64,000 nucleotides of DNA from Rodentibacter sp. JRC1 (lineage in GTDB: Bacteria; Pseudomonadota; Gammaproteobacteria; Enterobacterales; Pasteurellaceae). Of the stretch, positions 13,427 through 39,654 are shown piece by piece. The translations under genes and the position numbers were made by a program. The stretch covers positions 1,426,001 through 1,490,000 of the forward strand of contig NZ_BPWA01000001.1 in assembly GCF_020521555.1 (NCBI RefSeq), given 5' to 3'. The notes beneath the pieces are model-generated. The model was not told the origin of the DNA, ran no database searches, and saw nothing but the letters and a program-made list of their open reading frames with translations. The first letter of the stretch is position 1. Every line of letters begins with the position of its first letter.

Positions 13427-13462
13427 TTCTTGCTTTTTGAACAGAGATGATAGGTGAAGAAT

Positions 13463-13990: not shown

Positions 13991-14045
13991 TCTCAAGTAT
14001 GCACGAACGTAATGTAGTACGTTTTAAGCAAAGTAGGAATAAATC

Positions 14046-14795: not shown

Positions 14796-14818
14796 ATCTA
14801 GGATCAAAGGATCAAAAA

Positions 14819-15169: not shown

Positions 15170-15180
15170 TTTCGCGATAA

Positions 15181-15210
15181 AAAAGGCTTGGTTTTCCAAG
15201 CCTTTTTTGT
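15181..15210 (+). terminator. Intrinsic terminator of the rpsP operon
   Basis: AAAAGGCTTGG and CCAAGCCTTTT stem with a TTTT loop and a T-rich tail, starting 11 bp after the rplS stop codon. Confidence 0.95.
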
Positions 15211-15238
15211 TGTAAAAATCATTAAAATTTAACAAAAC

Positions 15239-15252
15239 TTGCAAAATATCAA
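15239..15252 (+). promoter_or_regulatory. Candidate FNR box upstream of focA
   Basis: TTGCAAAATATCAA matches the FNR palindrome TTGAT-N4-ATCAA, with a perfect right half and two changes in the left half, about 100 bp before focA. The focA-pfl genes are classic anaerobic FNR targets, so the position is sensible. A chance match in AT-rich DNA is possible. Confidence 0.4.
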
Positions 15253-15350
15253 ATTTTTTTGAAATAAAATTTGTCGTTTATTGCAATGTATAGATAAGAG
15301 AGTAAAATAGCGCCAATTATAATTAATAAAAAGAGTCATCATTGAGGTTT

Positions 15351-16202
15351 ATGTCAGATATAAAAACTTCTTCAATAGTTGCATTAAGTCCGGTTGAAGC
15401 GACTGACTTTGCGGAAAATGCGGCGACTTATAAAGCCAAAAAACGTCCATTTCTTTCTTTTATGTCAGGCATTAGTGCGGGAGCATGCATTGCGTTGGCA
15501 TTTATTTTTTATACCACAACACAAACCGCCTCAGCAGGCGCACCATGGGGCTTAACCAAATTAGTCGGTGGTTTAGTTTTCTCTATTGGGGTGATTATGG
15601 TTGTGTTGTTAGGATCAGAACTTTTTACTTCATCTACTCTTACACTTATTGCCCGTGTTGGAAGACAAATCACAACGTGGCAAATGATTCGTAATTGGAT
15701 CGCAGTCTATTTCGGCAACTTTGCCGGCAGCTTAATTATTGCCGCATTTGTTTGGTTCGGTGGGCAAACGATGGCTGCAAACGGGCAGTGGGGATTGACT
15801 ATTTTAACTACCGCTCAACATAAGATTCATCATAGTTGGTTTGAAGCCTTTAACTTAGGCATTCTGTGTAACATTATGGTGTGTTTGGCCGTTTGGTTGT
15901 CCTATTCGGGGAGAACCGTTATTGATAAAGCATTCATTATGATTATGCCGATCGGTTTATTTGTCGCATCCGGTTTTGAACACTGTGTGGCAAATATGTT
16001 TATGATTCCAATGGGAATTATTACTGCACATTATAGTACCCCTGAATTTTGGCAACAATTGGGCATTGAGGCGGGTAAATACGCAGATTTAGATGTTTAT
16101 CATTTTATTATTAAGAATTTAATCCCGGTGACGTTGGGAAATATTGTGGGTGGCGCAATTTGTGTCGGTTTATTTCAACGTTACCTAACAAAATCCCACT
16201 AA
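15351..16202 (+). CDS. focA: Formate/nitrite channel FocA
   Basis: Pentameric inner-membrane formate channel, 283 residues, with six membrane helices separated by the family's FNT loops. Examples are FLSFMSGISAGACIALAFIFY and the GSELFTSSTLTL motif near residue 90, part of the pore gate region. AWLSYSGRT-like and FGHC-like blocks appear as VWLSYSGRTVI and GFEHCVANMFMIP. ATG 15351 is preferred over the TTG at 15342. It is directly upstream of pflB (49 bp), the usual formate operon. Confidence 0.94.
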   Translation: MSDIKTSSIVALSPVEATDFAENAATYKAKKRPFLSFMSGISAGACIALAFIFYTTTQTASAGAPWGLTKLVGGLVFSIGVIMVVLLGSELFTSSTLTLIARVGRQITTWQMIRNWIAVYFGNFAGSLIIAAFVWFGGQTMAANGQWGLTILTTAQHKIHHSWFEAFNLGILCNIMVCLAVWLSYSGRTVIDKAFIMIMPIGLFVASGFEHCVANMFMIPMGIITAHYSTPEFWQQLGIEAGKYADLDVYHFIIKNLIPVTLGNIVGGAICVGLFQRYLTKSH

Positions 16203-23049: not shown

Positions 23050-23225
23050 TGGGGAATGGTTGACGAATGCGATAACAAAATTTTACATTTTTCGGTTCTA
23101 TATCAATAGAATAAACCAACTGTATCAATCACTTTTATCCTACATAATAGCCGTGTAGAATGCGCGACATTTTAGTCCGATCTAAATCGGTTTTCTCATT
23201 TATTTTCCAAAAAGGAGACATCAAT

Positions 23226-26200
23226 ATGGCACACTTACTTCAAATAACAACAGCACATAAAGTGGAGAGGATAACCCTTCCCTCAAACCAGACCACGAGG
23301 ATTCCGGCTGAAGCTGACACGCAATATCAATTAGTTAATGAAAATGATCAGCCTATTCAGGGAGTAAAATCTACCATGATGGGGGATGATCTTACGGTGT
23401 TCGTTGATAGTGAAGGAACCACCTTAGTACTAGAGAATTACAAAACTTTTTATCCCATAGAAAGCCGGCTTTATCTCTCCGAGCAAAATGCGACATTATT
23501 TGGTGTAACCGAAACAGTGCAAACTGCACCAATGCAAGCTAGCGAGGTGCTGACGTTAAAACATCTTACGATTTTTGGTTTGGGTAGTTTAGCGCTTGGA
23601 GGAATACTATTAGCTTCAAAAACAAGTAAGTCTCGAGGTTCTTCTAATGATGCGGAACAAGCACAAACTGAACAACCGATACCGGAACAACCGAAGGTAG
23701 AACAACCACAAGCTGAACAACCGATACCGGAACAACCGAAGGTAGAACAACCACAAGCTGAAAAACCGATACCGGAACAACCGAAGGTAGAACAACCACA
23801 AGCTGAAAAACCGATACCGGAACAACCGAAGGTAGAACAACCACAAGCTGAAAAACCGATACCGGAACAACCGAAGGTAGAACAACCACAAGCTGAAAAA
23901 CCGATACCGGAACAGCCGAAGGTAGAACAACCACAAGCTGAACAACCGATATCGCAACAGCCTAAAAAAGAACAACCTCTCGTTCATCCAACGATCACAT
24001 TTGATACTATTACGGATGATAACGTCATCAACATCAAAGAAAGTCAAGCAGACATTGAGATAACAGGTAACACTACTGATGTTCCAAACGGTAGTGAATT
24101 AGCTATTAAATTGGGTGATGAAATTTTTAAAGTAACGGTTAATGACAACCGCTTTTCAACTTTTATTCGTGGTGAGAAATTGGCCCGACAAAGCAAAATA
24201 ACTGCAGAAGTCACAGTTAGTGACAATGTCGGTCATATGGTATACGGTAATGCCGAGAAAGCCTACGAAGTTAATACTACGCTACCTGAAGTTGCAGTAA
24301 CAATTAACCCTATCAATGATGGAAAAATCCTTAATCAAGCCAACCAAGAGCAAGGGATAGTGCTTAGTGGAACGGTTAACGTGGCGGATGATGTTAATGT
24401 ACTCGCTGTGTTGTTGAGCGTGGGGGAACGCCAAGATGAACCGGCTCAACTAAACGGCAAAACTTGGTCGCTCAATATGTTTGGAGCACATTTGACTGCG
24501 GCGGATACCCCTACGGTGGTTGTTAAAGCGATTGTCAGCAATGCAATCGGTAATACTGTCGAGGGAACGGCACAGCAGACCTACACAGTGGATGTTACTC
24601 CGCCAGTGGCACAATTAATGCTGAATGACATTACAGCAGACAACGTTATCAATATTGAGGAAGCGAAAGGCACAATCTTACTTTCAGGCAAAGCGACGGG
24701 TGAATTTCGTACCGGTGATATTGTAAGGCTTACTGTAGATGAGCAAACGATCGGAAATGTTGCGCTTTCTGCAAATGGTGAATTTAGTCTTGATGTAATG
24801 GCAGAAAAACTGATAGGACACCGTGAGCTAAAAGCAAGCTTGGGTGCAACGGATAGTGCAGAGAACCAAACCATTGTTACCCAAATCAAGGTTTACGATG
24901 TGGATTTACATATTAATCAGCCTGAAATAATTACCATTAAAGTCGCCAACGATAACTTTATCAATGTGAACGAGGGTAAAACCGATGTGGTGGTTAGTGG
25001 GATAGTGAAAAATGTCGCTGACGGAGTAAAAGTGCGGTTAGAAATTGGTGAGTTTTCTAAAGAAGTTGAAGTGCAAAATGGACAATTTAGTACGATGGTT
25101 TCGCCTGAAGTGATGTTGGCAAATCGTGTAGTTTCAGCGACAGTAACTAATACTGATGCAGCAGGTAACCGTGCAGAAGATAGCCAAACACAAGACTATG
25201 AAGTTGATGCAAACTTGGTTGCCGCTGTGGATATTACAAGCATAGGACAATATTTTGGTGCGGATTTGGCAAAAACAACTCGTATTAGCGGCACGGTAGA
25301 ATTTGATGGCGTTTATGCTCAAGGTCAAAACCCAAGAATGTTACGGGCAGTGAATGTGGTGATTGGGGATAAAACCTATACGACAGGTTTTGATGGAAAA
25401 ACGAAATCGTTCTATTTAGATATTCCTAATGCAGAGTTAGCTCAATTAAATGGCGAAACGGTGAGTATTAACTTCTTAAACCGTAAGACTATTTCTTATA
25501 TGCCTGTTTCAGAGACTGCTCCTGTCAATTTATTCGAAAATGTCCATACTTTAGATAAACAACGTGATGGTAGTTATCAATTACAAAGCCTAGGAGGTAG
25601 TTTTAATCCTCAAAAGGGGCTACATTGGAATCCCGTTGAAGTTCAAGTAAAATCATTTAAATTAGATAGTACCGCCCTAAATGATGATAACCAAGTTGAT
25701 ATGCCGCCAAGCCAGATCCAAATTTTCGGTAATGTATGGGGCGATGCTAAAGAAGGTGATCAAGTTCTGCTAAAAGTGGGAGAGCAAACCTTTGAAACAA
25801 AGGTAAAGTCTGATTATACTTTCTCGCTAGAAGTCAGTTCAGCGGATCTCGCTAAGCATAAAGAGGTGCAAGCGGTCTTAAAAACGCAAGATATTGCAGG
25901 AAATGCGATTAGTGTGCAGACAGTAGAAAATTATATAGCACCAAATACAGTGTCATCTGAGTTTGTTTCTCAACGAGAAGTACCAAAGGCGGCTCGTAAA
26001 ACGGATCATACAAAAGAGGATTACAATTTCCCATACTTCGTGAATGGCTTATTATTTGAGCCCGATCTGGGCATTAATGTTGGCTTGCCTGTGGGTGGTA
26101 AAAAAGAGCCTTTAGAGATTAAATACCATTTTATGACTGCTGAAGAGGCAGCAAAATATCCGGTTAAAAATAATGATCCATTGTTCAAAAAAGATCTTTA

Positions 26201-27755
26201 TTTTGATTATACGGAGAATCATAAGCAGAGTATTCGAGATGCTTATCAAGTCTATGAAAAATACCTGAACGTGAAATTCATAGAAACAAATAATATTGAC
26301 GAGGCTCAAGCACGACATTATCTTGGAGAAGCAGAAGTCGATGCAAAAACAGGAGCAGTATTAACTGCCATCGGTAACTTTGGACATATATACAATACGG
26401 GATTAGTTTGGAATAGACTAGAATATATTACAAAGGAGACGTTCTTCAAAAACCAAATTGCATTTGCCAATATTCACGAAATTGGACATAACTTCCATTT
26501 AGTTCATACAGAGCATGGCGATAAAACGCCAATTGCCGGCTTTGAAAATGAGGCAAATAGCGAATTTAGTGTGATGTCATATAACACCTTTATGGCAACT
26601 CATCCTATAACGGGCGTAATGCTATCAGGATACAGCCCAATGCGTTTATTTGATTTAGCCGCATTACACTACCGCTATGGTGTAAATCCAAATAGCCGAG
26701 CAGGAAATGATACTTATGGATTCCGTGATTATAATGGCTTAGAAACAGATGGGGCGTTATATATCTGGGATGGTGATGGCATAGATACCTTCGATGCTTC
26801 TAATGAAAAAGTTGGTGTCAATGTTGATTTAACACCGGGTTCTTGGATTTATCGTGGCACAGAAAGAAAAAAATATTTTTTATCTGAAGGCCGAGAGACT
26901 TTAACCGCACATGAGTATTTTGATGTAGATAGCCAAACCGCTATTAAAGGTCAATTCACCCCAGAACTGAGTTTTAGTATCATTGGCCAGCCAACGGATA
27001 CAAAAACGTTCCAGAAATATGTTAAAGATCAAGCCTTTATCGGTTTTGGTACACAAATCGAGAATCTGATTGGCTCTGACTATGATGATGTACTGACAGG
27101 CAACAATGCCGATAACAACATTGAAGGCGGGGCAGGTGATGATCTGATAAAAGGCGGAGCAGGTAACGACTACCTCAACGGTGGCAAAGGTGCTGATGAA
27201 ATGCACGGTGGTACAGGCGATGATACTTTCGTTGTCGATAATGAGAAAGATAAAGTGGTTGAAAACGCCGATGAAGGTACAGACACCATTATCAGCCATA
27301 TTGATTATGTTTTACCTGATAATGTTGAAAACCTCACCTTAGTCGGCATAGCTGCTGAAAAAGCGACAGGTAACGCATTGGATAATATCCTGACAGCAAA
27401 CAACATTGGCAATACCTTAATCGGTGGAGCAGGAAACGACCGTTTGATCGGCGGCTCAGGGGCGGACACTCTTACAGGTGGAGATGGCAGCGATACTTTT
27501 GTTTTCCAAACGGAATTGAACGGCGAAATTGATACCATTACTGATTTTGGCAGTGAGGATAAAATTGCCCTCTCAAGTGTGATTTTTACTGCTGTTAGCG
27601 AAGGAATGGCGAATTTTAACGACTATATCCAATATGACAGCGAAAGCGGTCAACTTTCCTACGATGCTGACGCTCAAGGTGGACGAGATGGGGTGCATTT
27701 TGCGACTTTGAGTACAGGGCTAAACCTCAACCAAAATCAGTTTGAGATTGTGTAA
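23226..27755 (+). CDS. Large RTX serralysin-like metalloprotease with adhesin-type N-terminal module
   Basis: A 1509-residue predicted type I-secreted surface or extracellular protein. Residues 1-110 resemble the BapA-type prefix of large adhesins, followed by a hydrophobic stretch (115-131, IFGLGSLALGGILLAS). Residues 149-238 are six 15-residue Pro/Gln/Glu repeats. From about 251 to 905 there are Ig-like modules (for example TPPVAQLMLNDITADNVINI). A zinc protease domain has HEIGHNFHLVH (1084-1094) and the Met-turn SVMSYN (1115-1120), the M10B serralysin pattern, though the usual Gly after the second His pair is His. RTX nonapeptides follow (about 1290-1345 and 1405-1435, GGAGNDYLNGG) with a C-terminal secretion-signal-like end. 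ATG 23226 is chosen for its RBS AAAGGAGA; an upstream ATG at 23160 lacks one. No hlyB/hlyD/tolC-type genes are nearby. Confidence 0.85.
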   Translation: MAHLLQITTAHKVERITLPSNQTTRIPAEADTQYQLVNENDQPIQGVKSTMMGDDLTVFVDSEGTTLVLENYKTFYPIESRLYLSEQNATLFGVTETVQTAPMQASEVLTLKHLTIFGLGSLALGGILLASKTSKSRGSSNDAEQAQTEQPIPEQPKVEQPQAEQPIPEQPKVEQPQAEKPIPEQPKVEQPQAEKPIPEQPKVEQPQAEKPIPEQPKVEQPQAEKPIPEQPKVEQPQAEQPISQQPKKEQPLVHPTITFDTITDDNVINIKESQADIEITGNTTDVPNGSELAIKLGDEIFKVTVNDNRFSTFIRGEKLARQSKITAEVTVSDNVGHMVYGNAEKAYEVNTTLPEVAVTINPINDGKILNQANQEQGIVLSGTVNVADDVNVLAVLLSVGERQDEPAQLNGKTWSLNMFGAHLTAADTPTVVVKAIVSNAIGNTVEGTAQQTYTVDVTPPVAQLMLNDITADNVINIEEAKGTILLSGKATGEFRTGDIVRLTVDEQTIGNVALSANGEFSLDVMAEKLIGHRELKASLGATDSAENQTIVTQIKVYDVDLHINQPEIITIKVANDNFINVNEGKTDVVVSGIVKNVADGVKVRLEIGEFSKEVEVQNGQFSTMVSPEVMLANRVVSATVTNTDAAGNRAEDSQTQDYEVDANLVAAVDITSIGQYFGADLAKTTRISGTVEFDGVYAQGQNPRMLRAVNVVIGDKTYTTGFDGKTKSFYLDIPNAELAQLNGETVSINFLNRKTISYMPVSETAPVNLFENVHTLDKQRDGSYQLQSLGGSFNPQKGLHWNPVEVQVKSFKLDSTALNDDNQVDMPPSQIQIFGNVWGDAKEGDQVLLKVGEQTFETKVKSDYTFSLEVSSADLAKHKEVQAVLKTQDIAGNAISVQTVENYIAPNTVSSEFVSQREVPKAARKTDHTKEDYNFPYFVNGLLFEPDLGINVGLPVGGKKEPLEIKYHFMTAEEAAKYPVKNNDPLFKKDLYFDYTENHKQSIRDAYQVYEKYLNVKFIETNNIDEAQARHYLGEAEVDAKTGAVLTAIGNFGHIYNTGLVWNRLEYITKETFFKNQIAFANIHEIGHNFHLVHTEHGDKTPIAGFENEANSEFSVMSYNTFMATHPITGVMLSGYSPMRLFDLAALHYRYGVNPNSRAGNDTYGFRDYNGLETDGALYIWDGDGIDTFDASNEKVGVNVDLTPGSWIYRGTERKKYFLSEGRETLTAHEYFDVDSQTAIKGQFTPELSFSIIGQPTDTKTFQKYVKDQAFIGFGTQIENLIGSDYDDVLTGNNADNNIEGGAGDDLIKGGAGNDYLNGGKGADEMHGGTGDDTFVVDNEKDKVVENADEGTDTIISHIDYVLPDNVENLTLVGIAAEKATGNALDNILTANNIGNTLIGGAGNDRLIGGSGADTLTGGDGSDTFVFQTELNGEIDTITDFGSEDKIALSSVIFTAVSEGMANFNDYIQYDSESGQLSYDADAQGGRDGVHFATLSTGLNLNQNQFEIV
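23670..23984 (+). repeat. 45-bp tandem repeats encoding a Pro/Gln/Glu spacer
   Basis: Six full units of 45 bp (23670-23939) plus one degenerate unit, each coding for E(Q/K)PIPEQPKVEQPQA. Units are nearly identical in DNA. Because 45 is a multiple of three, copy-number change would alter spacer length without frameshift. Confidence 0.97.
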
Positions 27756-28122: not shown

Positions 28123-28962
28123 TTAAAATAAACTTTGCTGCCCGAGTAAAAATTCAGGCATAGCTTTTATCCTAAAACCGTATTCAGCTAAAAAATCTTT
28201 TAACGTGGCAATATTATAAAATGAGTGGCTTTTGGTCGTATTTTGAAAATAGAGATAGAGTCGGTCAAACTCTGATTTTCGTTGATGGAGTAGCTTTGCT
28301 AAATTTTGTAATTCCACTTCGTTATAACGGTAATCGTGGCGTTCTTGGGCAGATTGGGCTTTCCACCAATTTGGGTTACGACCATGCAGACGTAAATAAG
28401 CGGTGCGTTGGTTGGGATAAAACTGGAAAGCAGGCAAACCAATATTGGGCGGATAATCCACGTTACACCAAATTAGATTTTGCTTACCGTGAAAATAATC
28501 CAACACCGATTGTGTATGCCAACTTGAGTGGCGAAACTCCACCGCCAACGGATAGCCCTCAAACCAGGTTACCAGTTCGGCAAGATAATAACGGTTGGCG
28601 TGATTTCGTTCAAAACTGATTGGGAATTGGATAAACAAATTTGCTAAGCAACCTTGCTCTGCCAAAGGTTGCAAAGCCTGCAAAAAAGCGACCGCTTGTT
28701 CCCGTGTCGCCATACGTTTATGGCTAAAATCCTGATGTAATTTCACCGAAAATTGCAACCGCCCCTGTGCTTTCTCCACCATTCCCTGCAACGTCTTCGC
28801 CCCGATGGGAGCGTGAAAAGTGCTGTTAATTTCAACGGTATCGTAATGCTGGCTATACACAGCTAGAAAATCATCTTTCTTCGTACCGTACGGATATAGC
28901 GTACCAAGTAGGTCTGTATCACTGTAACCACCGGTGCCGATGTAGATGTAGGGATTTTGCAT
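28123..28962 (-). CDS. DUF72 (YecE-like) family protein
   Basis: A 279-residue TIM-barrel-like protein of unknown function, related to E. coli YecE. Diagnostic are the N-terminal IGTGGYSDTDLLGTLYP, VEINSTFHAPIG, and the block PLAVEFRHSSWH with the later AYLRLHGRN. It contains an exact Actinobacillus-type uptake signal (28691-28699). Located beside the inverting hsdS locus, with its 5' end 26 bp from the start of the silent hsdS reading frame, which is divergent from it. No pathway link is visible. Confidence 0.88.
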   Translation of the reverse strand: MQNPYIYIGTGGYSDTDLLGTLYPYGTKKDDFLAVYSQHYDTVEINSTFHAPIGAKTLQGMVEKAQGRLQFSVKLHQDFSHKRMATREQAVAFLQALQPLAEQGCLANLFIQFPISFERNHANRYYLAELVTWFEGYPLAVEFRHSSWHTQSVLDYFHGKQNLIWCNVDYPPNIGLPAFQFYPNQRTAYLRLHGRNPNWWKAQSAQERHDYRYNEVELQNLAKLLHQRKSEFDRLYLYFQNTTKSHSFYNIATLKDFLAEYGFRIKAMPEFLLGQQSLF

Positions 28963-28987
28963 AGGGTTTTGTGTTTGGAGCTAAAGG

Positions 28988-30385
28988 TTGGGTAGTTTAA
29001 GGGGAATTGGGGAAAAGGCAAGAGGAGAATATCGGTATAAACTTCCTTTTACGAAGGACGATAAATTCCCCTTTGAAATTCCTGACAATTGGGTGTGGGT
29101 GAGGTTGGGGGATATATCATCAAAAATTACAGATGGTTCTCATAACCCACCACCAAATAATTTATCGGGGATTCCCATTTTAAGTGCTGCAAATATATTT
29201 GGAGGAACAATTCAATTTTCTTCTGCATCTCGTTGGATCTCTGAAGAACAATGGGAAATAGAAAATAAAAGAACAGAAATCCAAATTAATGATATTTTAT
29301 TAACTATTGTTGGAACTATAGGTAGAACGGCAATTGTTAAATCAAATAACAAATTTGCATTACAAAGAAGTGTTGGGGTAATTAAGTCAATACTCGTTTT
29401 TCCTGAATATATTAGTTATGCTTTGCAATCTACATTTTTATTAGATTTAATGGTATCAAATAGTAAAGGAACTGCTCAAAAAGGAATTTATTTAAACGCA
29501 ATAAAGGAATTGATTATTCCCCTCCCTCCACTAAGCGAACAACACCGCATTGTCGCTAAAATTGAAGAACTTCTCCCTTTTATCGACCAATATGCCAAAA
29601 AAGAACAGGAACTGACCGCTTTACATCAAGCCTTTCCCGATAAACTGAAAAAGTCTATTTTACAAGCGGCGATCCAAGGCAAATTAACGGAGCAAAACCC
29701 GAATGATGAGCCCGCAATTGAATTGGTTAAACACATTCAGCAAGAAAAAGAGCGGTTAATTTCTGAGAAGAAATTAAAAAAAACAAAACGGCAATCGGAG
29801 ATTATAATGCGGGATAACATTCCTTATGAGATTATTGATGGGGTAGAGCATTGTATTGCTGATGAAGTCCCGTTCGAAATCCCTGAAAATTGGTGTTGGG
29901 TGAGGTTGGGGAACATAGGAGAAACAAACATTGGATTAACTTATTCTCCTTCAAATCTATCTAATTCGGGCACTATTGTTCTTCGCTCTGGAAACATAAA
30001 AAATGGATTATTAGATCTAAATGAAGTTGTAAAAGTAAATTTAGATATTCCTGAAACAAAAAAATGTAATAAAGGAGATATTTTAATTTGTGCTAGAAAC
30101 GGAAGTAAAAAATTAGTTGGGAAATGTGTAATTATTGACCAAAATGGTTTTTCTTTTGGTGCATTTATGGCAATATTTAGAAGTAAGTTTAATCCATATA
30201 TACATCATTTTTTATCTTCTCCTTTATTTAGAAATGATTTTGATGGACTTAATACTACAACTATAAATCAAATCACACAAGATAATTTAAATAATAGACT
30301 TATTCCACTACCACCATTAAATGAACAAAAACGCATTGTAGATAAAATTGAAAAATTATTTTTAGAATTAGATAAATTAAAATAA
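28988..30385 (+). pseudogene. Silent 5'-truncated hsdS cassette (alternative specificity half)
   Basis: Open frame of 465 codons opening at TTG, lacking the first about 56 residues of a normal HsdS. Bases 29037-29904 are an inverted copy of the expressed hsdS, encoding target-recognition domain 1 and the central conserved helix (PLPPLSEQHRIVAKIEELLPFIDQYAKKE). From 29905 it encodes a different second recognition domain (starting GNIGETNIGLTYSPSNL) and ends IEKLFLELDKLK. No start signal or promoter like that of the hsdRMS operon precedes it, so it is probably not translated as an HsdS. Inversion would place its second half behind the expressed 5' part. It ends at a bidirectional terminator facing the recombinase gene. 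Confidence 0.88.
29037..29904 (+). repeat. Inverted repeat IR1 of the hsdS switch (868 bp)
   Basis: Aligned base by base with the complement of 31814-32681 at both ends and in several internal blocks. Both arms are exactly 868 bp, with no indel and one synonymous difference noticed (Val GTG here, GTA in the other arm). Outside the arms the sequences diverge at once. Confidence 0.92.
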
Positions 30386-30388
30386 TAG

Positions 30389-30413
30389 TATGGGCGTATT
30401 TATTACGCCCATA
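30389..30413. terminator. Bidirectional hairpin between silent hsdS and recombinase
   Basis: TATGGGCGTA and TACGCCCATA stem with a small loop, between two convergent reading frames. Confidence 0.75.
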
Positions 30414-30422
30414 GAATAAAAA

Positions 30423-31226
30423 TTACCAATCAATGACTTTATTCACAATCGCTTGTTGTTCTGTGCTTGTTCGGCGTAGATATATTCTTGTGGTTTCTAT
30501 GGTTTCGTGTCCCATTAGATCGGCTAGAAAGGCAAGATCATTAAATCTTTCTAAAAAACTTTTAGCAAAACGATGCCTAAAAGAATGGGGATAAACTAAT
30601 TTAGGATTTATTTGATAGCGTTTAGCTAAAATTTTTAATTGACTGGCAATACCACGAGTAGTAATTCTCTTATTATAACGATTAAGAAAAATAAATCCGT
30701 GTTGTCGATTGATACTTTCTAACCATTTTAAACATTCTTTTTGTAATAACTCAGGAATATAAATTCGGCGTAACTTCCCACCTTTTGAATAAAGATCAAT
30801 ATAGCCGATTTTAATATGCTCACATTTGATCTGAATTAGCTCACTCACCCTTGCCCCAGTCGCTGCCATAAAACGAATAACAAAATACCAATAAAGATTA
30901 TTATCCGATTTTAATCGTTCTTTAAAATAACGATAATCTGCTTCACTAATCACATTTTCTAAAAATGTTTTCTGTTGTACTTTTACAAAAGTTAATTTCC
31001 ATTTTTCTTTTTTAATAAATTCTAAATAATAATTAACTGCTCTAATCCTTAAATTAACCGTTCGAGGTTTATAATGTTCAATTAAAAATATTTTATATTG
31101 TTTAAGATTAGATTTTGTTATTTCTGGAAAGAAATTGTAATACTGTTTTATCGCAAACAAATAAATAGAAACTGTATTATTAGCTAAGTTTTGATTTGAA
31201 AGATAACCTTGAAATGAATTAATCAT
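30423..31226 (-). CDS. Tyrosine recombinase inside the invertible segment (probable hsdS invertase)
   Basis: A 267-residue phage-integrase/XerD-family recombinase. Catalytic residues are present: Arg126 (GARVSEL), Lys148/151, HxxR at His214-Arg217 (HSFRHRF), His240 (MGHETIE) and the nucleophile Tyr249 (RIYLRR). The N-terminal SAM-like domain covers about 1-85. It lies between the two opposed hsdS frames and inside the inverted repeats, the arrangement of shufflon-type type I restriction loci (for example the pneumococcal SpnIII locus). It most likely catalyses the inversion. AT content is higher than in core genes. It is neither XerC nor XerD of the host by context, and no attachment site or phage gene is near. 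Confidence 0.88.
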   Translation of the reverse strand: MINSFQGYLSNQNLANNTVSIYLFAIKQYYNFFPEITKSNLKQYKIFLIEHYKPRTVNLRIRAVNYYLEFIKKEKWKLTFVKVQQKTFLENVISEADYRYFKERLKSDNNLYWYFVIRFMAATGARVSELIQIKCEHIKIGYIDLYSKGGKLRRIYIPELLQKECLKWLESINRQHGFIFLNRYNKRITTRGIASQLKILAKRYQINPKLVYPHSFRHRFAKSFLERFNDLAFLADLMGHETIETTRIYLRRTSTEQQAIVNKVIDW

Positions 31227-31301
31227 ACTTATTTTCCTTATTTTAGGTTGAAAAGAAGTATGATAATATAGGTAAAATATATTATCTGATAATTGTTGTC
31301 A

Positions 31302-31321
31302 GGGCATGATGCTTCATGCCC
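31302..31321. terminator. Hairpin after expressed hsdS
   Basis: GGGCATGA and TCATGCCC stem with a TGCT loop, just beyond the hsdS stop codon. The T-rich side lies on the plus strand, so it is a weak terminator for the minus-strand operon. Confidence 0.5.
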
Positions 31322-31329
31322 TTTTCTAT

Positions 31330-32850
31330 TCACTTTAATTTATCTAATGATGAAAATAGTATTTCTATTTTATTTACAATTTGTTTTTGCTCTGAAAGAG
31401 GAGGGAGTGGAAAGATCAAATTTCCAATTAAATTTAGATCTACTGTTGGTAGTGCTGTACCTTTATAATGTTTTTTAAAATCTATAGTATTAAATATCAT
31501 AAATATATAATTGAAATAATTTATTTCAAAAGGAATAAATATACCTGTATTGAGATCTACCAAAGATGCTGATTTTAATATTCTTTTTTTATTAGTAAAT
31601 ACAGCACCACCATTTTTAGGAAAAACTATACTATTTTCTGGATAAGTTTTACCTGAATAATTTTTGCTTAAAAATTTATTTGTATGTATTAGATATTTTT
31701 CATTTCCATCAGTGTTCATATCTGAAACCTTAAAATAAGGTATCTCTCCTGTATGGGCTAATTGTTTAGCTTTTGGTGTATGCCCTGATACTAATATTCC
31801 CAATTGATTTAATCTCACCCAACACCAATTTTCAGGGATTTCGAACGGGACTTCATCAGCAATACAATGCTCTACCCCATCAATAATCTCATAAGGAATG
31901 TTATCCCGCATTATAATCTCCGATTGCCGTTTTGTTTTTTTTAATTTCTTCTCAGAAATTAACCGCTCTTTTTCTTGCTGAATGTGTTTAACCAATTCAA
32001 TTGCGGGCTCATCATTCGGGTTTTGCTCCGTTAATTTGCCTTGGATCGCCGCTTGTAAAATAGACTTTTTCAGTTTATCGGGAAAGGCTTGATGTAAAGC
32101 GGTCAGTTCCTGTTCTTTTTTGGCATATTGGTCGATAAAAGGGAGAAGTTCTTCAATTTTAGCGACAATGCGGTGTTGTTCGCTTAGTGGAGGGAGGGGA
32201 ATAATCAATTCCTTTATTGCGTTTAAATAAATTCCTTTTTGAGCAGTTCCTTTACTATTTGATACCATTAAATCTAATAAAAATGTAGATTGCAAAGCAT
32301 AACTAATATATTCAGGAAAAACGAGTATTGACTTAATTACCCCAACACTTCTTTGTAATGCAAATTTGTTATTTGATTTAACAATTGCCGTTCTACCTAT
32401 AGTTCCAACAATAGTTAATAAAATATCATTAATTTGGATTTCTGTTCTTTTATTTTCTATTTCCCATTGTTCTTCAGAGATCCAACGAGATGCAGAAGAA
32501 AATTGAATTGTTCCTCCAAATATATTTGCAGCACTTAAAATGGGAATCCCCGATAAATTATTTGGTGGTGGGTTATGAGAACCATCTGTAATTTTTGATG
32601 ATATATCCCCCAACCTCACCCATACCCAATTGTCAGGAATTTCAAAGGGGAATTTATCGTCCTTCGTAAAAGGAAGTTTATCGGCAGATTTTTTGCTTTT
32701 TTTAATTTTTCCCTCTGCGATCAATTTTTCTTTTTCTTGCTGGATTTTTTCTAATAGCACTGAGGCTGGTTCATCATTGGGATCTTGAGGGACAAGTTTT
32801 CCTTGAATAGCTAGTTGTAAAATGGCGTTTTTTAATTGTTGAGCTTTCAT
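31330..32850 (-). CDS. hsdS: Type I restriction enzyme specificity subunit HsdS (expressed copy)
   Basis: DNA-recognition subunit of the type I restriction-modification complex; 506 residues. N-terminal helix region 1-56 is unique to this copy. Residues about 57-346 are encoded by the 868-bp inverted repeat: recognition domain 1 (FEIPDNWVWVRLGDISSKIT) and the central conserved helices. Residues 346-506 form recognition domain 2 (NQLGILVSGHTPKAKQ) and the C-terminal helix. Its start overlaps the rhuM-like stop by 4 bp (ATGA), so translation is coupled to the hsdRM operon. The second half can be exchanged with the silent cassette by inversion. Target sequence cannot be predicted. Confidence 0.93.
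   Translation of the reverse strand: MKAQQLKNAILQLAIQGKLVPQDPNDEPASVLLEKIQQEKEKLIAEGKIKKSKKSADKLPFTKDDKFPFEIPDNWVWVRLGDISSKITDGSHNPPPNNLSGIPILSAANIFGGTIQFSSASRWISEEQWEIENKRTEIQINDILLTIVGTIGRTAIVKSNNKFALQRSVGVIKSILVFPEYISYALQSTFLLDLMVSNSKGTAQKGIYLNAIKELIIPLPPLSEQHRIVAKIEELLPFIDQYAKKEQELTALHQAFPDKLKKSILQAAIQGKLTEQNPNDEPAIELVKHIQQEKERLISEKKLKKTKRQSEIIMRDNIPYEIIDGVEHCIADEVPFEIPENWCWVRLNQLGILVSGHTPKAKQLAHTGEIPYFKVSDMNTDGNEKYLIHTNKFLSKNYSGKTYPENSIVFPKNGGAVFTNKKRILKSASLVDLNTGIFIPFEINYFNYIFMIFNTIDFKKHYKGTALPTVDLNLIGNLIFPLPPLSEQKQIVNKIEILFSSLDKLK
31814..32681 (-). repeat. Inverted repeat IR2 of the hsdS switch (868 bp)
   Basis: Arm within the expressed hsdS, complementary to 29037-29904. The segment between the inner ends (29905-31813, 1909 bp) holds both alternative second recognition domains and the recombinase gene and would invert as a unit. 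Confidence 0.92.
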
Positions 32851-33842
32851 CTTTTATTTTTAACCTGTTTTCCTAAAGCTTCGAGCATTGATAAATCTTC
32901 TTGGTCTGCCTGTAATTTAAGGGCTTCTCGGCGTTTTTGGCTGAAGATTGCATATTGTTCTGAGGTAAAATCTTTCATTTGCTGACGGCTTTTGCTTCCT
33001 TTTGTAGATAAAACTTCAAAGCCGTTATCCTCAATAATGCTATCAATACGGTGTTGCCAAAATTTAAGAGTAAGATCTTGTCTGTTTTTGGCTCGTAGTT
33101 CCGCACTTTCTAAAAAGATCACAGTAAGCCTATTTAAGGTGTCAATTTCATCAGCATTGAGGTAATTTTTAGAGATAATAATATCGGCTTTTAATATTTG
33201 CTCACCACTCCAAGCAGTTAGCCCCATATTGGGTAATTCAGCGTTTGCTCGATTGCAAATCAATTCCGCAACAGTCTGTTTGGTAACCGCATAAATCAAT
33301 TTATTTTGTGCTTGAGCAAAGAACATTTCGGTAGCTTTGTCGCTTTTATCATAATCACTGGAAAGTTTAAAAAGCTCTCGCACTTTTTGGTAAAACCGCA
33401 TTTCACTGGCTCGAATATCACGGATACGTTCCAGTAATTCATCAAAGTGATCGACTCTCCCTTGAGGATTTTTCAGACGTTCATCATCTAATAAAAAGCC
33501 TTTTTCGAGGTAGGTTTTTAAATGGCTATTTGCCCAACGGCGAAACTGTACGCCACGGGGGCTACGCACACGAAAACCTACGGCTAAAATCATCTCAAGA
33601 GAATAGTGTTTTACTTTATAATTTTTTCCATCAGATGCAGTTATGAAATAATCCTTCATAACTGAAACTTCATCTAACTCATTATCTTTTAAGATATTTT
33701 TAATATGTTCGGATATATTTCGTACAGAGGTGTCAAAAAGTTCTGCTAGCTGATTTTGGTTTAGCCACACTTCATTGCCTTGCACAAAAAGCGATACTCG
33801 ACTTTTTCCGTCTTCGGTATTGTAGATAATCAAATCCGACAT
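32847..33842 (-). CDS. RhuM-family protein embedded in the hsd operon
   Basis: A 331-residue protein of the RhuM virulence-protein family, whose biochemical role is not established. Family features are the N-terminal EVWLNQNQLAELFDTSVRNISEHIKNIL (a HTH-like segment), LEMILAVGFRVRSPRGVQFRRWA (about 80-105) and the C-terminal helical half. RhuM-like genes often sit inside type I restriction loci between hsdM and hsdS. Here it is 8 bp after hsdM and overlaps hsdS by 4 bp, so all are translated from one mRNA. Confidence 0.88.
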   Translation of the reverse strand: MSDLIIYNTEDGKSRVSLFVQGNEVWLNQNQLAELFDTSVRNISEHIKNILKDNELDEVSVMKDYFITASDGKNYKVKHYSLEMILAVGFRVRSPRGVQFRRWANSHLKTYLEKGFLLDDERLKNPQGRVDHFDELLERIRDIRASEMRFYQKVRELFKLSSDYDKSDKATEMFFAQAQNKLIYAVTKQTVAELICNRANAELPNMGLTAWSGEQILKADIIISKNYLNADEIDTLNRLTVIFLESAELRAKNRQDLTLKFWQHRIDSIIEDNGFEVLSTKGSKSRQQMKDFTSEQYAIFSQKRREALKLQADQEDLSMLEALGKQVKNKR

Positions 33843-33850
33843 TTTTCCCC

Positions 33851-35320
33851 CTATAATTTAATCCCCAAAATCCCTGTGATTTCCGCTAAAATTTGGTCAA
33901 TATCGGCATTTAAAGCGGTGCGTTTTTGTTGATAATTTGCAATCAATTCATCAGGGGGTAGAATTTCCTCTTCTTCGTGGGGAAAACCGCATAAGTCGAT
34001 ATTAAATTGACGGTCTGCAATTTCTTGGTAGCTGTAACTTTTCGCTTTATCAAAGCCATCGATTTCAATTGGTTGGCGGTTGTGCCACCAGTTGATGACT
34101 TCATTGAAATGCTCCAATTTCATCGGTTTGGTTTTAGAGAAATTTTTGTAGCCTTCAGGCATATCAAGACGATAAAACCACGTTTCTTTGGTCGGTTGGC
34201 TGTTATCAAAAAAGAGAATATTGGTCGTGATTGAGGTATAAGGGGCAAAAACACTATGGGGGAGGCGAATCACGGTGTGTAAATTCATTTCGCTCATTAG
34301 TTTTTGCTTAATCGCTATTTTGGCGTTATCCGTGCCGAATAAAAAACCGTCAGGAAGAACAATTGCCACTCGTCCATTTTTCTTTAAGCGGTACATAATC
34401 ACTGACATAAATAGATCCGCCGTTTCACTACTGCGTAATGAGGAAGGGAAATTCATTTTAATTTGCTCAATTTCACTGCCTCCATAAGGAGGATTCATCA
34501 AAATCACATCGAATTTTTCCGTTTCGGTGTAGTCTTTAACGTTTTTTTCTAACGCATTGTCGTGATGAACATTGGGGTTATCAATATCGTGCAGTAGTAA
34601 ATTGGTTACACAAAGCAAATGTGGTAAGGCTTTTTTCTCAATGCCATAGACGGAATTATTAAACAAAGTGCGGTCAGAAATGGACTGAATTTGTTTTTCT
34701 AGCACTTTTAATGCAGAAGTCAAAAATCCGCCTGTACCGCAGGCAAAATCGGCAATTTTCTCGCCTAGTTTGGGGGCGATCATCTGCACCATAAAATCGG
34801 TAACCGCTCGTGGTGTATAAAATTCGCCAGCATTGCCCGCACTTTGTAGGCTTTTTAAAATATTTTCATAAATATCACCAAAGGCGTGGCGTTCTTGATA
34901 CTGCTCAAAGTTGATTTCATCAATAATATTGATCACTTGGCGTAATAAAACGCCATTTTTCATATAGTTATTATTATCTTCAAACGCCGCACGGATGATT
35001 TTTTGATTCATTGGTGTGCTGGTAGAAATCGGCAGGTTTTTTAATGTAGGAAACAAATCATTATTGACGAAATTCAGCAGTTCCTCGCCTGTCATTGCTT
35101 TGCCGTCTTTGTTGTCTTTTGCCCAGTTCGACCAACGCAAGAAAGGGGGCAAAATGGATTGGTAATTATCGTTAATCAGCTCCCATTCCTGCTCTTTGGC
35201 ATCGTAAATTTTAAGAAATAAAATCCAGACGATCTGCTCAATACGTTGTGCATCACCGTTAATCCCCGCATCATTTCGCATTACATCTTGCAGGCGTTTT
35301 ACTAAGTTATTTAGGCTCAT
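33851..35320 (-). CDS. hsdM: Type I restriction enzyme methyltransferase subunit HsdM
   Basis: N6-adenine methyltransferase subunit, 489 residues. It has the N-terminal helical HsdM_N domain (MSLNNLVKRLQDVMRNDAGI), GEFYTPRAVTDFMVQM, SAM motif I FACGTGGF (about 190-197) and catalytic motif IV NPPYGG. With HsdS it methylates the target; with HsdR it forms the restriction complex. It is 76 bp after hsdR and 8 bp before the rhuM-like gene. A Haemophilus uptake signal lies inside it (about 34665), one of only two in the 28-40 kb accessory block. Confidence 0.96.
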   Translation of the reverse strand: MSLNNLVKRLQDVMRNDAGINGDAQRIEQIVWILFLKIYDAKEQEWELINDNYQSILPPFLRWSNWAKDNKDGKAMTGEELLNFVNNDLFPTLKNLPISTSTPMNQKIIRAAFEDNNNYMKNGVLLRQVINIIDEINFEQYQERHAFGDIYENILKSLQSAGNAGEFYTPRAVTDFMVQMIAPKLGEKIADFACGTGGFLTSALKVLEKQIQSISDRTLFNNSVYGIEKKALPHLLCVTNLLLHDIDNPNVHHDNALEKNVKDYTETEKFDVILMNPPYGGSEIEQIKMNFPSSLRSSETADLFMSVIMYRLKKNGRVAIVLPDGFLFGTDNAKIAIKQKLMSEMNLHTVIRLPHSVFAPYTSITTNILFFDNSQPTKETWFYRLDMPEGYKNFSKTKPMKLEHFNEVINWWHNRQPIEIDGFDKAKSYSYQEIADRQFNIDLCGFPHEEEEILPPDELIANYQQKRTALNADIDQILAEITGILGIKL

Positions 35321-35396: not shown

Positions 35397-37751
35397 CTAA
35401 TCGCTGTAAAGTAGGTTTTCCAGCCCTTTCACCGCTTTTTGATAAAGCTCTTTGCCACCAAATTTTTTCACAATGGAAATTAAGCCGCCAAAGGGTTCAA
35501 ATTGACTATTTTTCAACAGTTCAGGTTTGCTGAGATCTTTCGCTCCCGATTTGGTGTATTCCTCCAAAATCAAGCCTAATACTTGCTGATTTTCTGCGTT
35601 ATATTGCTTCACATAACCGCTTTGTTGCACTTTGGCGACACGTTCGCTTTTGGTCATTACAGGCTTATCAAAGGCAAGGTTACGCAGAATGTCTAAATCG
35701 TCCACATTGTTGCCCCATTTGTGTTTTGTGCGGAGTGAGTGAAGCCATTTTTCGTGGGTATAAAATTTGGAGAAAATCTCACCGCTTGTCAGCCAGCTTT
35801 GTTGGAGTTGTTTGTAAGATGAGAAATCTTGGCGGATATGGCGTTTGGAGTAGAGATCAATATCCTCCGAAACCAATTCTCCCTGTTCATTCAGATATTG
35901 TACTTTTTCATCGAGAATGCGTAACAATAGCTTTCCGGCTTCAATTACGATTGTAGGTTTATAGGTTGCTTCCGGCTCTCTCACTTCATCGTCGTTATGC
36001 GAACCTGTGGTGTCTTTTTCTTTTCTGGTTTTAGTTGTGTCATCATCGGGATCTAAAATGACGATAGGATCACCATCAAAATCAGGATCGGCAAATAAAT
36101 CCGTTACGCCACGAAAATCCATTATGGTAAAAAAGGCTTTGTCGGCATCAAGACGTAGGCGTGTGCCTCGACCAATAATCTGTTTAAATTCGGTCATTGA
36201 TTGAATATTAGCGTCCAGTACAATCAATTTGCAGGTTTTGCTATCCACACCTGTTGTCATCAGTTTGGAAGTTACCGCAATCACAGGGTAGCTACTGCCC
36301 TCATTGTGGACATCACAAAACTCCTCTAAATCGGCATTTTTACCCATTTGGTCGCCTGTGATTTGGCGGATATATTTTGGATTTTGTGCCAATATATCGG
36401 CATTCAGCTCCGACAACGCCGCAACCATTCGCTGGGCGTGGTTGATATTGGCACAAAACACAATAGTTTTCTGCAAGCGGTCAGTTTTCTTCAAAAATTC
36501 GTTAATGCGTTCGGCAACAAGGCGAGTGCGGTCGTCTAAGACAATGTTGTAATCAAAATCTTTGGCGGTATAAAGTCTGTCTTCCACTAATTCGCCATTT
36601 TTATCTTTCAAGCCTTTGCTTGGTCGCCAGCCCTTTAAGTCGCAATCCAAATCCACCCGTACCACACGATAAGGGGCGAGAAAACCGTCATCAATCCCTT
36701 GCTTTAAGCTGTAAGTGTAAATTGGATCGCCAAAATAGCTGATATTGCTCGCCTCTGCGGTTTCCTTCGGCGTGGCGGTCATTCCAATATGGGTTGCTTC
36801 ACTGAAATAATCCAAAATCGCTCGCCAGTTTGAATTTTCTTTCGCACTGCCACGATGACATTCATCAATAATGATCAAATCAAAAAAAGAGGGCTGAAAT
36901 TGTTTAAATAGAGCTTTATCCGCTTCACCGTCAAGCTGTTGATAAAGGGCGAGATAAACTTCATAGGCACTATCAAGGGTTTTATGGCTAACTTTTACCA
37001 TTTTGTCTTTAAATGGCTTGAAGTCTTGGGTCATCGGTTGATCGATAAGCACATTTCGGTCAGCTAAAAACAGCACCTTGCGTTTTGCACCGCTAGTGCG
37101 TAACCGATGAATAATCTGAAAGGCGGTATAGGTTTTGCCAGTTCCCGTTGCCATCACCAATAAAATCCGATTTTGCCCTTTTGCTACCGCTTCTACCGTG
37201 CGGTTAATCGCAATTTCTTGATAGTATCGGGGCTCTTTAAATTGGCTGGCGGCACTGGTGTAATAAGGTTGTTGGATAATCTTGAGTTCTTCGGCGGAAT
37301 ATTGCTGTTTCCAACGCTGTTCCAATTCTTGCGGTGTTGGGAATTGTGCCATCGGCAAGGTGCGTTGTTTACCCGTAATAAAATCGTGTTCGACAAATTC
37401 ATCGCCGTTGGAACTATACGCAAATGGAACATCAAGCAACAAAGCGTAGTCCATCGCTTGCTGTAAACCGTCCCTTGCGGTGTGTTTATTATCTTTTGCC
37501 TCCACGACTGCAATAGTGCGATTAGGGGCTTGATAAAGCAAATAATCCACCCGCTTGCCCTCTTTACGGCTGGCTTTCTTCGTTTTCGGATCAATTAACA
37601 TCCGCCCATCGGTAAATTGCTTATCTGCCTTGAACGAGTATTCTTCACGAATTTGCCTATCATCCCAACCCGCATTTCTAATCGCAGGGGTAATAAATTT
37701 GGAACGAATATCCGTTTCTGACATCACACGTTTTTCCGCTAGACTAAACAT
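35397..37751 (-). CDS. hsdR: Type I restriction enzyme endonuclease/translocase subunit HsdR
   Basis: Motor and nuclease subunit of 784 residues, on the short side of the family. The N-terminal nuclease domain has the D...ExK pattern (KRVDYLLYQAPNRTIAVVEAKDN, about 67-89). The SF2 motor shows Walker A TGTGKTYT, DECH in IIDECHRGS, the SAT-type motif MTATPKE and motif VI IIGRGTRLR. C-terminal helical domains bind HsdM. It is the first hsd gene, 125 bp downstream of the broken fic gene on the same strand. An uptake signal lies just upstream of its start (about 37797). Confidence 0.95.
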   Translation of the reverse strand: MFSLAEKRVMSETDIRSKFITPAIRNAGWDDRQIREEYSFKADKQFTDGRMLIDPKTKKASRKEGKRVDYLLYQAPNRTIAVVEAKDNKHTARDGLQQAMDYALLLDVPFAYSSNGDEFVEHDFITGKQRTLPMAQFPTPQELEQRWKQQYSAEELKIIQQPYYTSAASQFKEPRYYQEIAINRTVEAVAKGQNRILLVMATGTGKTYTAFQIIHRLRTSGAKRKVLFLADRNVLIDQPMTQDFKPFKDKMVKVSHKTLDSAYEVYLALYQQLDGEADKALFKQFQPSFFDLIIIDECHRGSAKENSNWRAILDYFSEATHIGMTATPKETAEASNISYFGDPIYTYSLKQGIDDGFLAPYRVVRVDLDCDLKGWRPSKGLKDKNGELVEDRLYTAKDFDYNIVLDDRTRLVAERINEFLKKTDRLQKTIVFCANINHAQRMVAALSELNADILAQNPKYIRQITGDQMGKNADLEEFCDVHNEGSSYPVIAVTSKLMTTGVDSKTCKLIVLDANIQSMTEFKQIIGRGTRLRLDADKAFFTIMDFRGVTDLFADPDFDGDPIVILDPDDDTTKTRKEKDTTGSHNDDEVREPEATYKPTIVIEAGKLLLRILDEKVQYLNEQGELVSEDIDLYSKRHIRQDFSSYKQLQQSWLTSGEIFSKFYTHEKWLHSLRTKHKWGNNVDDLDILRNLAFDKPVMTKSERVAKVQQSGYVKQYNAENQQVLGLILEEYTKSGAKDLSKPELLKNSQFEPFGGLISIVKKFGGKELYQKAVKGLENLLYSD

Positions 37752-37875: not shown

Positions 37876-38973
37876 TTAATTGAATTGATATTTTCCTTTT
37901 CCTAATCCACTGATTTTTGAAATTATTGCACTTTCAAGCATTTTTTTGAGCAGTTCAGAAGCAGCAGAAGGAGAAATGTTAAGCCATTTAACCACATCAC
38001 TACGGGAGAAAATCTTGTCTTGTATTGTTTGACGTAAGGTTTCAATATGCTGTTGTGTTTTATTTGAAAGTCTTGTTTTTTTAGGCGGAAAATAAACAAT
38101 ATCTTGTTTTGCTTGCCTAATGTCTTGTTTTTTGGCTTGAATGTCCTGTTTTAAAAATTGCTCGCTATGAATATGTAGCTGACGATTGCTTAACAGGTGA
38201 TTTTCATTTAGCAATAAATTACGCAGAAATTTCACTAAATATTCTGTCGTTTCATAAATACCTTGGGTTAAATTATTATAATTTGCACGCACGAGAGTAT
38301 TTCTAAAATACCAAGAATGTTTAGCAAAAATATTATTTTCAGCATTAAAACCGAGCGTTCTTAAATATTTAATAAAAAAGACCGCAGTTGTGCGTGTATC
38401 GCCTTCAGAAAAGGGATGAATTTGCCATAAACGTGCAATAAATATCGCTAGATGTTCAATAATTTCATCAATAGATAAACCTTTATAGCTAAATTTTTTC
38501 TCTGGGTGAGATCATATTCTAATCTTGCTTGTAGTTCAGATGCTGTATCATAAGTTATCGTATCACCATTTAATATCCATTTTTTTAGTGATATTATAAT
38601 TTCGTATTTTTCCTGCGTGTGAATAGATATTTTTAAAAAGTGATTGGCGAATAGATAAATATTGATGAATATTAAATGAAAAAGCAGGTTCAGCTAATAG
38701 TTTAGCAGTGCGTACAGAAACTTTATCCGCTTCTTCTGTGCGAGAATTTTTATCGGAGCTTGGTTTTTCTTGATAATATTGACTAATCCATTGTTCTGCC
38801 GTTTCAATGGAAATTTCTCCCTCAATATTTTTCATTGCTGTTTCAATTAAATAGAGGGAAGGTTGCAAGTGATCAACCTCTTGTAACCCAATTGCTGTTT
38901 GCCACAAATAACCTTTCTCTTTTTTATTTGCCTCAATGTGGAGAAGGTATTCTTTAAATAGATCGGTTGTCAT
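37876..38973 (-). pseudogene. Fic-domain protein gene broken by two homopolymer frameshifts
   Basis: Fic proteins attach AMP or another nucleotide part to target proteins. The reading frame runs from 38973 (MTTDLFKEYLLHIEANKKEK) to an early stop at 38563, then must shift at a seven-A tract (38580-38586) to continue WILNGDTITYDTASELQARL. It must shift back at a six-A tract (38494-38499), after which the original frame runs to 37876. The restored frame contains the active-site motif HPFSEGDTRT (around 38390-38418) and ends in a winged-helix domain (SRSDVVKWLNISPSAASELLKKML). The full product would be about 365 residues. Either a pseudogene, a slippage-switched gene, or homopolymer sequencing error. 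It abuts the NYN gene upstream without a gap. Confidence 0.85.
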
Positions 38974-39654
38974 TTATTTTTCTTTTATTGAAAATGTAGT
39001 TTTATCTTTATGAGTATATAATTCATATCCTTTTAAACTTTTGCAAAATTTTGTAAAAGAATTATACCCATAAGAACGGTAATCAAATTCAGGATCTATT
39101 TTTCTTAGTGCTTCAGCAAAGCGAGATAATAAAGCTAAGTCATTCTCTACACTTTTTACCATATTAAACGCTTTTTGAATTAAACGATAATTATTAAATT
39201 GTGATGTTTCTTTTCCACTATTTGTTTTATCTTTTAAATTTTCTTCTCGAATAAATTGTTCACAAGCTTTTTTAAAGGCTTCTGGGGTATGCTCTTTTCC
39301 AATACCAATAATTCCTATTCCTTCTTCTCTTATACGATGAGCTAATCCTGTATAATCACTATCACTTGAAACAATACAAAAATGATCTACTATTTTAGAA
39401 TGTAATAAATCCATTGCATTGATAATAAGCGAGGTATCCGTAGAGTTTTTACCTTTTGTATAAGCAAATTTTTGTATTGGTGTAATAGCGTGTGAATTAA
39501 GGACTTCTTTCCATTTTTTATTTCTCTCTGAAGTCCAATCTCCATAGATACGTTTAACTGTAACTCTGCCAAATCTACCTGCTTCATTTAAGATTTCAGA
39601 TATCAATGAACTATCAGCATTATCAGCGTCAATTAATACCGCAACTTTTTCCAT
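38974..39654 (-). CDS. NYN-domain (LabA/DUF88-like) protein with LOTUS-like tail
   Basis: A 226-residue protein with an N-terminal NYN/PIN-like RNase domain (about 1-145): VAVLIDADNADSSL with acidic active-site residues, NSTDTSLIINAMDLL and IVSSDSDYTGLAHRIRE supply the other conserved acids. The C-terminal third (about 155-226: YRLIQKAFNMVKS, FDYRSYGYNSFTKFCKSL) looks like an OST-HTH/LOTUS RNA-binding domain. The combination is typical of LabA-like proteins, thought to cut or bind RNA. Located directly before the fic gene (adjacent stop and start) in the restriction island, so a defence-related role is plausible but unproven. Confidence 0.86.
   Translation of the reverse strand: MEKVAVLIDADNADSSLISEILNEAGRFGRVTVKRIYGDWTSERNKKWKEVLNSHAITPIQKFAYTKGKNSTDTSLIINAMDLLHSKIVDHFCIVSSDSDYTGLAHRIREEGIGIIGIGKEHTPEAFKKACEQFIREENLKDKTNSGKETSQFNNYRLIQKAFNMVKSVENDLALLSRFAEALRKIDPEFDYRSYGYNSFTKFCKSLKGYELYTHKDKTTFSIKEK

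Follow-up and report, generated by a model that had tools for sequence, protein, structure and literature searches.

Within a 64,000-nucleotide stretch of contig NZ_BPWA01000001.1 from Rodentibacter sp. JRC1 (hereafter called the window, whose numbering is used throughout), two hsdS genes for type I restriction specificity subunits face each other and enclose the open frame of a tyrosine recombinase (30423–31226, minus strand), as the original prediction, made from the letters of the DNA, had stated. The gene hsdS-A (31330–32850, minus strand) encodes a full-length subunit of 506 amino acids that matches Pfam Methylase_S in two stretches and PADLOC Specificity_I over residues 1–505; the solved relatives of its product are 3okg, 5ybb, 2y7c (EcoKI S), and 1yf2. 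The facing copy, hsdS-B (28988–30385, plus strand), likewise matches Methylase_S in two stretches and lacks the N-terminal segment of hsdS-A. A search by sequence comparison for a counterpart of the first 56 hsdS-A residues in hsdS-B gave no match, and the TTG start listed for hsdS-B is a mechanical call only. The absence of these residues and the position of hsdS-B right beside a DUF72 gene make it a probable silent cassette of target recognition domains (TRDs). hsdS-A, which lies downstream of hsdM, is presumed to be the expressed copy.

The restriction-modification operon runs on the minus strand in the order hsdR-hsdM-rhuM-hsdS-A. The restriction subunit gene hsdR (35397–37751) belongs to the EcoAI/FtnUII family; its product scores 1001.8 bits against the EcoAI/FtnUII model NCBIfam NF046051 (cut-off 550) and matches Pfam ResIII, EcoEI_R_C, and HSDR_N. 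The N6-adenine methyltransferase subunit is encoded by hsdM (33851–35320; Pfam N6_Mtase and HsdM_N, PADLOC MTase_I). Between hsdM and hsdS-A lies a RhuM-family gene, rhuM (32847–33842; Pfam Virulence_RhuM, 2e-100), which overlaps the start of hsdS-A by 4 bases and matches PDC-S05, a candidate defense family of PADLOC (1.8e-141). All of these genes have open frames in the window. With hsdR, hsdM, and hsdS all present and an R subunit of the EcoAI/FtnUII family, the operon is, by its gene content, a complete EcoAI-like type I system.

The two hsdS copies share an inverted repeat of 871 nucleotides (nt), whose left arm spans 29037–29907 (plus strand) and whose right arm spans 31811–32681 (minus strand). 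Base-by-base comparison revealed mismatches at two positions, 29095/32623 and 29905/31813; the longest uninterrupted match covers 809 nt (29096–29904). The repeat had been predicted as exactly 868 bp; it is real but not exact, with 867 of those 868 positions matching. A near-perfect repeat of this length is far beyond chance. When the 4-kb locus was compared with the genome that contains it, every match fell within the locus: the whole locus, arm against arm, and two short matches (82% over 66–67 bases) between the 3' ends of both hsdS genes. The arms start at the same codon phase, take in the entire TRD1 together with the central conserved region, and end where TRD2 begins. TRD1 is thus carried inside the repeat in both hsdS-B (29090–29560, plus strand) and hsdS-A (32158–32628, minus strand), and its protein sequence does not vary between them. 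Beyond the inner ends the predicted difference in the second recognition domain is evident. In the present orientation hsdS-B contains TRD2b (29909–30325, plus strand) and hsdS-A contains TRD2a (31393–31809, minus strand), which do not match each other. Because the repeat contains the whole of TRD1, inversion would change only TRD2 and yield two specificities.

The enclosed recombinase (267 amino acids; Pfam Phage_integrase) is 55.3% identical over residues 2–267 to a protein that is annotated as PsrA and encoded, likewise near an hsdS, on a plasmid of Streptococcus dysgalactiae. In an alignment with seven homologues, R126, H214, R217, H240, and Y249, which we take to be the catalytic residues, are invariant. 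Its PsrA homology and its location at an hsdS locus point to a PsrA-type hsdS invertase. The orientation of the recombinase relative to hsdS-A is mixed among the 21 loci in which it could be placed: 12 agree with the window and 9 are opposite. Of the former, L060 (L numbers denote loci and G numbers genomes) gives no information, its recombinase being placed outside the hsdS pair, and each group contains a broken copy (L041 in the first, L115 in the second). These stop-interrupted copies lie beside hsdS at 9830–10632 of L041 (G034) and 2631–3331 of L115 (G121). Pattern scans, which are no proof of function, placed terminator-like hairpins between the recombinase stop and hsdS-B (30389–30413, minus strand scored) and between hsdS-A and the recombinase (31301–31322, plus strand only scored).

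In comparing the window with a congener, we noticed that the same system occupies the same chromosomal site, near metH, in the opposite orientation (genome G011, locus L037). The flanks are collinear (window 28123–29115 with 8499–9493 of L037, and 31811–33044 with 11209–12440), whereas window 29037–31404 aligns in reverse to L037 12079–9692 with 86.5% identity. TRD1, TRD2b, and the recombinase are inverted together relative to the window. TRD2b, which lies in the silent copy in the window, has a 90.6% counterpart in L037 within an open hsdS of 505 amino acids that adjoins hsdM. The inverted product therefore occurs naturally, and both orientations are found, between species. The silent hsdS copy of L037 lacks the central repeat and, within 12275–15868, HsdM and HsdS are whole while HsdR and RhuM match only as fragments. 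Decay of restriction and assembly error are both possible causes of the fragments. Since the silent copy is incomplete and HsdR and RhuM are fragmentary, the switch of L037 may be locked, unless assembly error accounts for the losses.

Each arm of the window contains two dif-like dyads that read ATAA-N6-TTAT or differ from it by one base. Site a (ATAA acttcc TTTT) precedes TRD1 at 29037–29050 (plus strand), its first base being the outer edge of the repeat, and is mirrored at 32668–32681 (minus strand). Site b (ATAA cattcc TTAT) precedes TRD2 at 29814–29827 (plus strand) and is mirrored at 31891–31904 (minus strand). The ATAA and TTAT halves resemble those of E. coli dif, and the architecture is also alike, with half-sites flanking a 6-bp center. 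In dif, strand exchange takes place at that center (PMC5357621). We regard the dyads as candidate crossover sites for the recombinase.

Similar dyads stand at matching places in 20 of 29 recombinase-linked hsdS loci from Pasteurellaceae, Clostridia, Bacteroidales, and Streptococcus, and comparison among such loci provides four lines of evidence on these sites. Homology between the arms tends to end exactly on the dyad: in 9 of the 13 placeable a-pairs the first A of site a is the last identical position going outward, and the remaining four extend by 1, 3, 6, and 33 bases, the last of these running into contig ends. Joining contigs of Rodentibacter myodis would supply a fourteenth a-pair, with 3 identical bases outward. 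The sites also resist drift. Over 27 cognate pairs they differ at 2 of 378 bases, compared with 475 of 8012 outside (Fisher p = 8e-8, a value made optimistic by the relatedness of the loci). These pairs derive from 32 rows, of which three from L116 (two chance matches, with 2 and 1 mismatches, and an identical pair) and an a-by-b row from L061 that has 2 mismatches were set aside, the two rows of the window being merged. Third, codon choice is skewed at a protein motif at the site, which was located without regard to codons. Tyr is encoded by TAT in 44 of 44 cases and Glu by GAG in 41 of 43; in the long open frames of these stretches TAT accounts for 80% of Tyr codons and GAG for 32% of Glu codons.

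As the fourth line, the six central bases agree within a pair in a scan that did not require equal centers, and they differ between a and b in all ten loci in which both pairs were read (the window, L043, L046, L047, L048, L049, L051, L053, L061, and L065). In the clostridial relatives L053, L061, and L066, a- and b-dyads with differing centers are readable beside a PsrA-like recombinase, in L066 on one arm only. Chance dyad matches at 29478 and 29501, inside the identical arms, and at 7674 of L116 were left uncounted. A tryptophan-rich segment before each TRD (PFEIPxxWxWVRL) was also considered as the crossover site and dropped. Among 30 Pasteurellaceae hsdS control loci the motif occurs only in L093 and, because L093 is itself a recombinase locus, the segment is without a control. 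Over 14 b-pairs the arms differ at 52 of 546 bases in this segment and at 0 of 196 in the dyad. An hsdS adjoining the same hsdM without a recombinase was sought as a further control and found in only 2 of 140 family genomes (G043 and G172). No TTATGA core is present in the hsdS of control L112, and control L113 is cut by a contig end; the set is accordingly too small to count.

The other recombinase loci suggest how the long repeat of the window arose. Two separate imperfect repeats, of 55–125 nt before TRD1 and 127–424 nt before TRD2, are present in 13 of the 28 (L043, L044, L041, L046–L049, L051, L053, L058, L059, L061, and L065), and the TRD1 starts differ between copies wherever they are readable in both. 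A long repeat that spans TRD1 recurs in L045 (859 nt, 99.8%) and L057 (726 nt, 100%). The TRD1 that A. indolicus (L048) carries in its expressed copy and the one that A. porcinus (L047) carries in its silent copy agree at 465 of 471 bases, which indicates that TRD1 also moves between copies. The ancestral locus may have had four states, and we infer that the lineage of the window lost the four-state switch once TRD1 had been homogenized. In R. myodis, whose contig NZ_MLHQ01000054.1 is identical to a contig of G009, site a is the end point of three contigs, which break off on either side of the hsdS unit at an exact repeat of only 33 bases. These ends hint at mixed orientations; they are suggestive only, because their weight depends on the assembler and its word length. 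A short contig of L049 that carries only the hsdS unit is uninformative in this respect, as its ends are identical to each other over 53 bases or more.

Together, gene content, PsrA homology, the opposite orientation in L037, and the candidate sites at the repeat edges support the prediction that this type I specificity locus can invert and carries a recombinase of its own. We propose a model, to which we assign a probability of roughly 0.87, in which a PsrA-type recombinase would act at paired dif-like sites in the two facing hsdS genes and invert the segment between them. Inversion would exchange TRD2a for TRD2b in the hsdS that adjoins hsdM and leave TRD1, essentially identical in both copies, unchanged. 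The enzyme would then alternate between two bipartite motifs with one half in common. Both forms would be expected to methylate, and the switch is probably active in this strain. The original prediction placed the inversion at 29905–31813. The domain swap it foresaw in the expressed hsdS is retained in our model; exchange most likely occurs at the short sites inside the arms instead, with the same effect on the protein.

Several results weigh against this assignment of the crossover. No cognate dyad pair was found in 9 of the 29 loci (L055, L059, L060, L063, L066, L069, L106, L117, and L118), for some of which just one arm lies in the stretch compared. With all 32 rows included, the drift test gives 7 of 448 site mismatches and 689 of 10,208 outside (p = 7e-7, optimistic for the same reason as before), and this non-independence of the loci itself lessens the force of the test. 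Conservation of the sites may be partly due to constraint on the protein. The dyad is also no more frequent than chance would suggest: the window contains 4 copies of ATAA-N6-TTAT with 3.76 expected, and ATAA-N6-TTATGAG occurs 7 times in the genome compared with 4 for a reversed control. We therefore rejected motif rarity as evidence, and the argument rests on position, identity between arms, the repeat edge, and codon choice. To these points must be added a finding from pneumococcus, where inversions on repeats of 333 bp and 85 bp persist without the recombinase CreX and are unchanged without RecA, while a 15-bp repeat alone strictly needs CreX (PMC6620402). The recombinase thus need not be the sole route in the window, and with 809 nt of perfect identity the segment could invert mainly by exchange across the long arms, the recombinase being accessory or spent. 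We consider this unlikely, given that the recombinase frame is open and retains the invariant residues of its family, that homology stops exactly at the outer base of the dyad in the nine a-pairs described above, and that the 14-bp sites stay identical while the remaining arms drift.

It is less likely still, and in our judgment improbable, that the locus is a relic that no longer switches in this lineage. Collapse of TRD1 to one type would fit such a relic, as would the stop within the recombinase of G034 and the state of L037, with its incomplete silent copy and fragmentary HsdR and RhuM. In the window, however, all genes are open, and the arms have exchanged sequence recently, since only 2 of 871 positions separate them, against a divergence of about 13% from the congener. 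A separate question is what an active switch would serve. That it diversifies restriction, as a defense against phage and foreign DNA, rather than regulating genes as a phasevarion, strikes us as evenly balanced. The open HsdR has been kept, the RhuM-family neighbor is a candidate defense protein of PADLOC, and the system is accessory, being present in 3 of 15 genomes of the genus; related Streptococcus switches, on the other hand, are reported to change the transcriptome or virulence traits (PMC10790761, PMC4190663). The two roles are compatible.

The proposed PsrA-type mechanism has close parallels, in line with the original prediction that such an architecture is known from other bacteria. 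Atack et al. 2020 describe recombinase-associated type I systems that invert, with repeats both ahead of the TRDs and between them, in 18 of 23 genomes of Actinobacillus pleuropneumoniae and 19 of 23 of Mannheimia haemolytica (PMC7394358). Both species belong to the same bacterial family as the source of the window; their systems, likened here by description and not by sequence, have two separate repeats, whereas the window has one that spans TRD1 and varies only TRD2. Recombinase-linked inverting hsdS loci are therefore already described in Pasteurellaceae, and the window adds another. The four-way switch of Streptococcus suis likewise has two hsdS genes with repeats before and between the TRDs, and its alleles with a common 5'-TRD are reported to share one half-site (PMC7394358); four states are predicted for it and two for the window. 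The hsd loci of Mycoplasma pulmonis with HvsR share hsdS inversion by a tyrosine recombinase and reside in a rodent respiratory pathogen (PMC4948785), a likeness drawn without sequence comparison. Signs of inversion among type I systems are reported in 13 species (PMC5903667).

The SpnIII/cod locus of Streptococcus pneumoniae, whose PsrA is also named CreX or IvrR, shares with the window a PsrA-type recombinase, TRD swapping between expressed and silent hsdS, and a TTAT core with variable upstream bases. It has three hsdS genes and three repeats, in contrast to two hsdS genes and one long repeat here, and the two loci were likened without sequence comparison. Recombination by CreX/PsrA is tied to a conserved 10-bp core, printed ATTATGGGAA, that contains TTAT; the 5 bases just upstream play a role (CTCTT in two repeats, GAAAC in the third), the third repeat responds differently, and strain G54 has a duplicated TRD 1.1 (PMC6620402). 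This core, as published, overlaps our candidate crossover site, and we infer that the upstream bases correspond to the crossover center. At the PsrA locus of S. dysgalactiae, GAAACCTTATGAGAAGTT forms an exact inverted pair of 18 nt and ATAACTCTCCTTAT another identical pair. It is tempting to speculate that a single dif-like dyad (approximately ATAA-N6-TTAT), lying within hsdS coding sequence and held at the DNA level, is common to the PsrA-type hsdS invertases of Pasteurellaceae, Clostridia, Bacteroidales, and streptococci. The six central bases would serve as a register code in which a pairs only with a (TRD1 exchange) and b only with b (TRD2 exchange), so that TRD positions do not mix. We give this broader proposal even odds. 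In pneumococcus its TTAT half and variable upstream bases were already known; what would be new, as far as our searches reach, is the full dyad with its position code and its breadth. The sequence TTATGAGAAG together with hsdS was not found in the literature, and no paper treating both hsdS and dif-like sites was found, a weak negative since the search covered open-license literature and site sequences often stand in figures.

The switch seems to be undescribed in Rodentibacter, a genus of rodent-associated bacteria, because no description of this locus appears among the papers listed for Rodentibacter with restriction-modification or for the genus with phase variation, the latter being the first few of a long list and judged by title. 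If active, it would allow one strain to hold two methylation states, with consequences for DNA uptake and sensitivity to phage and perhaps for gene expression. The locus gives useful pointers to the cutting positions of its recombinase and, with two site pairs of different centers, one recombinase, and an oppositely oriented congener, offers a compact, testable model of how PsrA-type enzymes choose crossover sites.

Among 140 genomes of the family, matches to the recombinase (E ≤ 1e-40) occur in 14, two with internal stops, and matches to HsdM (E ≤ 1e-150) in 13, with 11 genomes common to both lists. Within the genus, all three HsdM genes lie 3.7–7 kb from metH. A scan of named genomes for the recombinase returned 28 loci, some outside Pasteurellaceae (Clostridia, Bacteroidales, Mycoplasmopsis, and others), where many records are metagenome bins whose taxon labels may be wrong. 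Identities outside the family are mostly 58–69% (58% in Mycoplasmopsis iners); a single bin reaches 75%, and a partial match has 48%. Of the 38,858 bases of the second contig of the window's genome, 19,000 were compared with plasmid and phage collections; only about 1% matched plasmids of Pasteurellaceae, and there was no phage match.

Just upstream of hsdR, two minus-strand frames (37876–38292 and 38563–38973) match positions 230–374 and 1–131, respectively, of PDC-S72, a candidate defense model of PADLOC, and are probably one split, broken gene. The frame at 38974–39654 (minus strand), which adjoins the restriction operon, encodes a protein with an NYN nuclease domain and an OST-HTH/LOTUS domain. 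A repetitive protein of 1531 amino acids, RTX-like by eye, is encoded at 23160–27755 (plus strand) with a 15/45-nt tandem repeat at about 23610–24014, and it has a divergent counterpart at the same place in L037.

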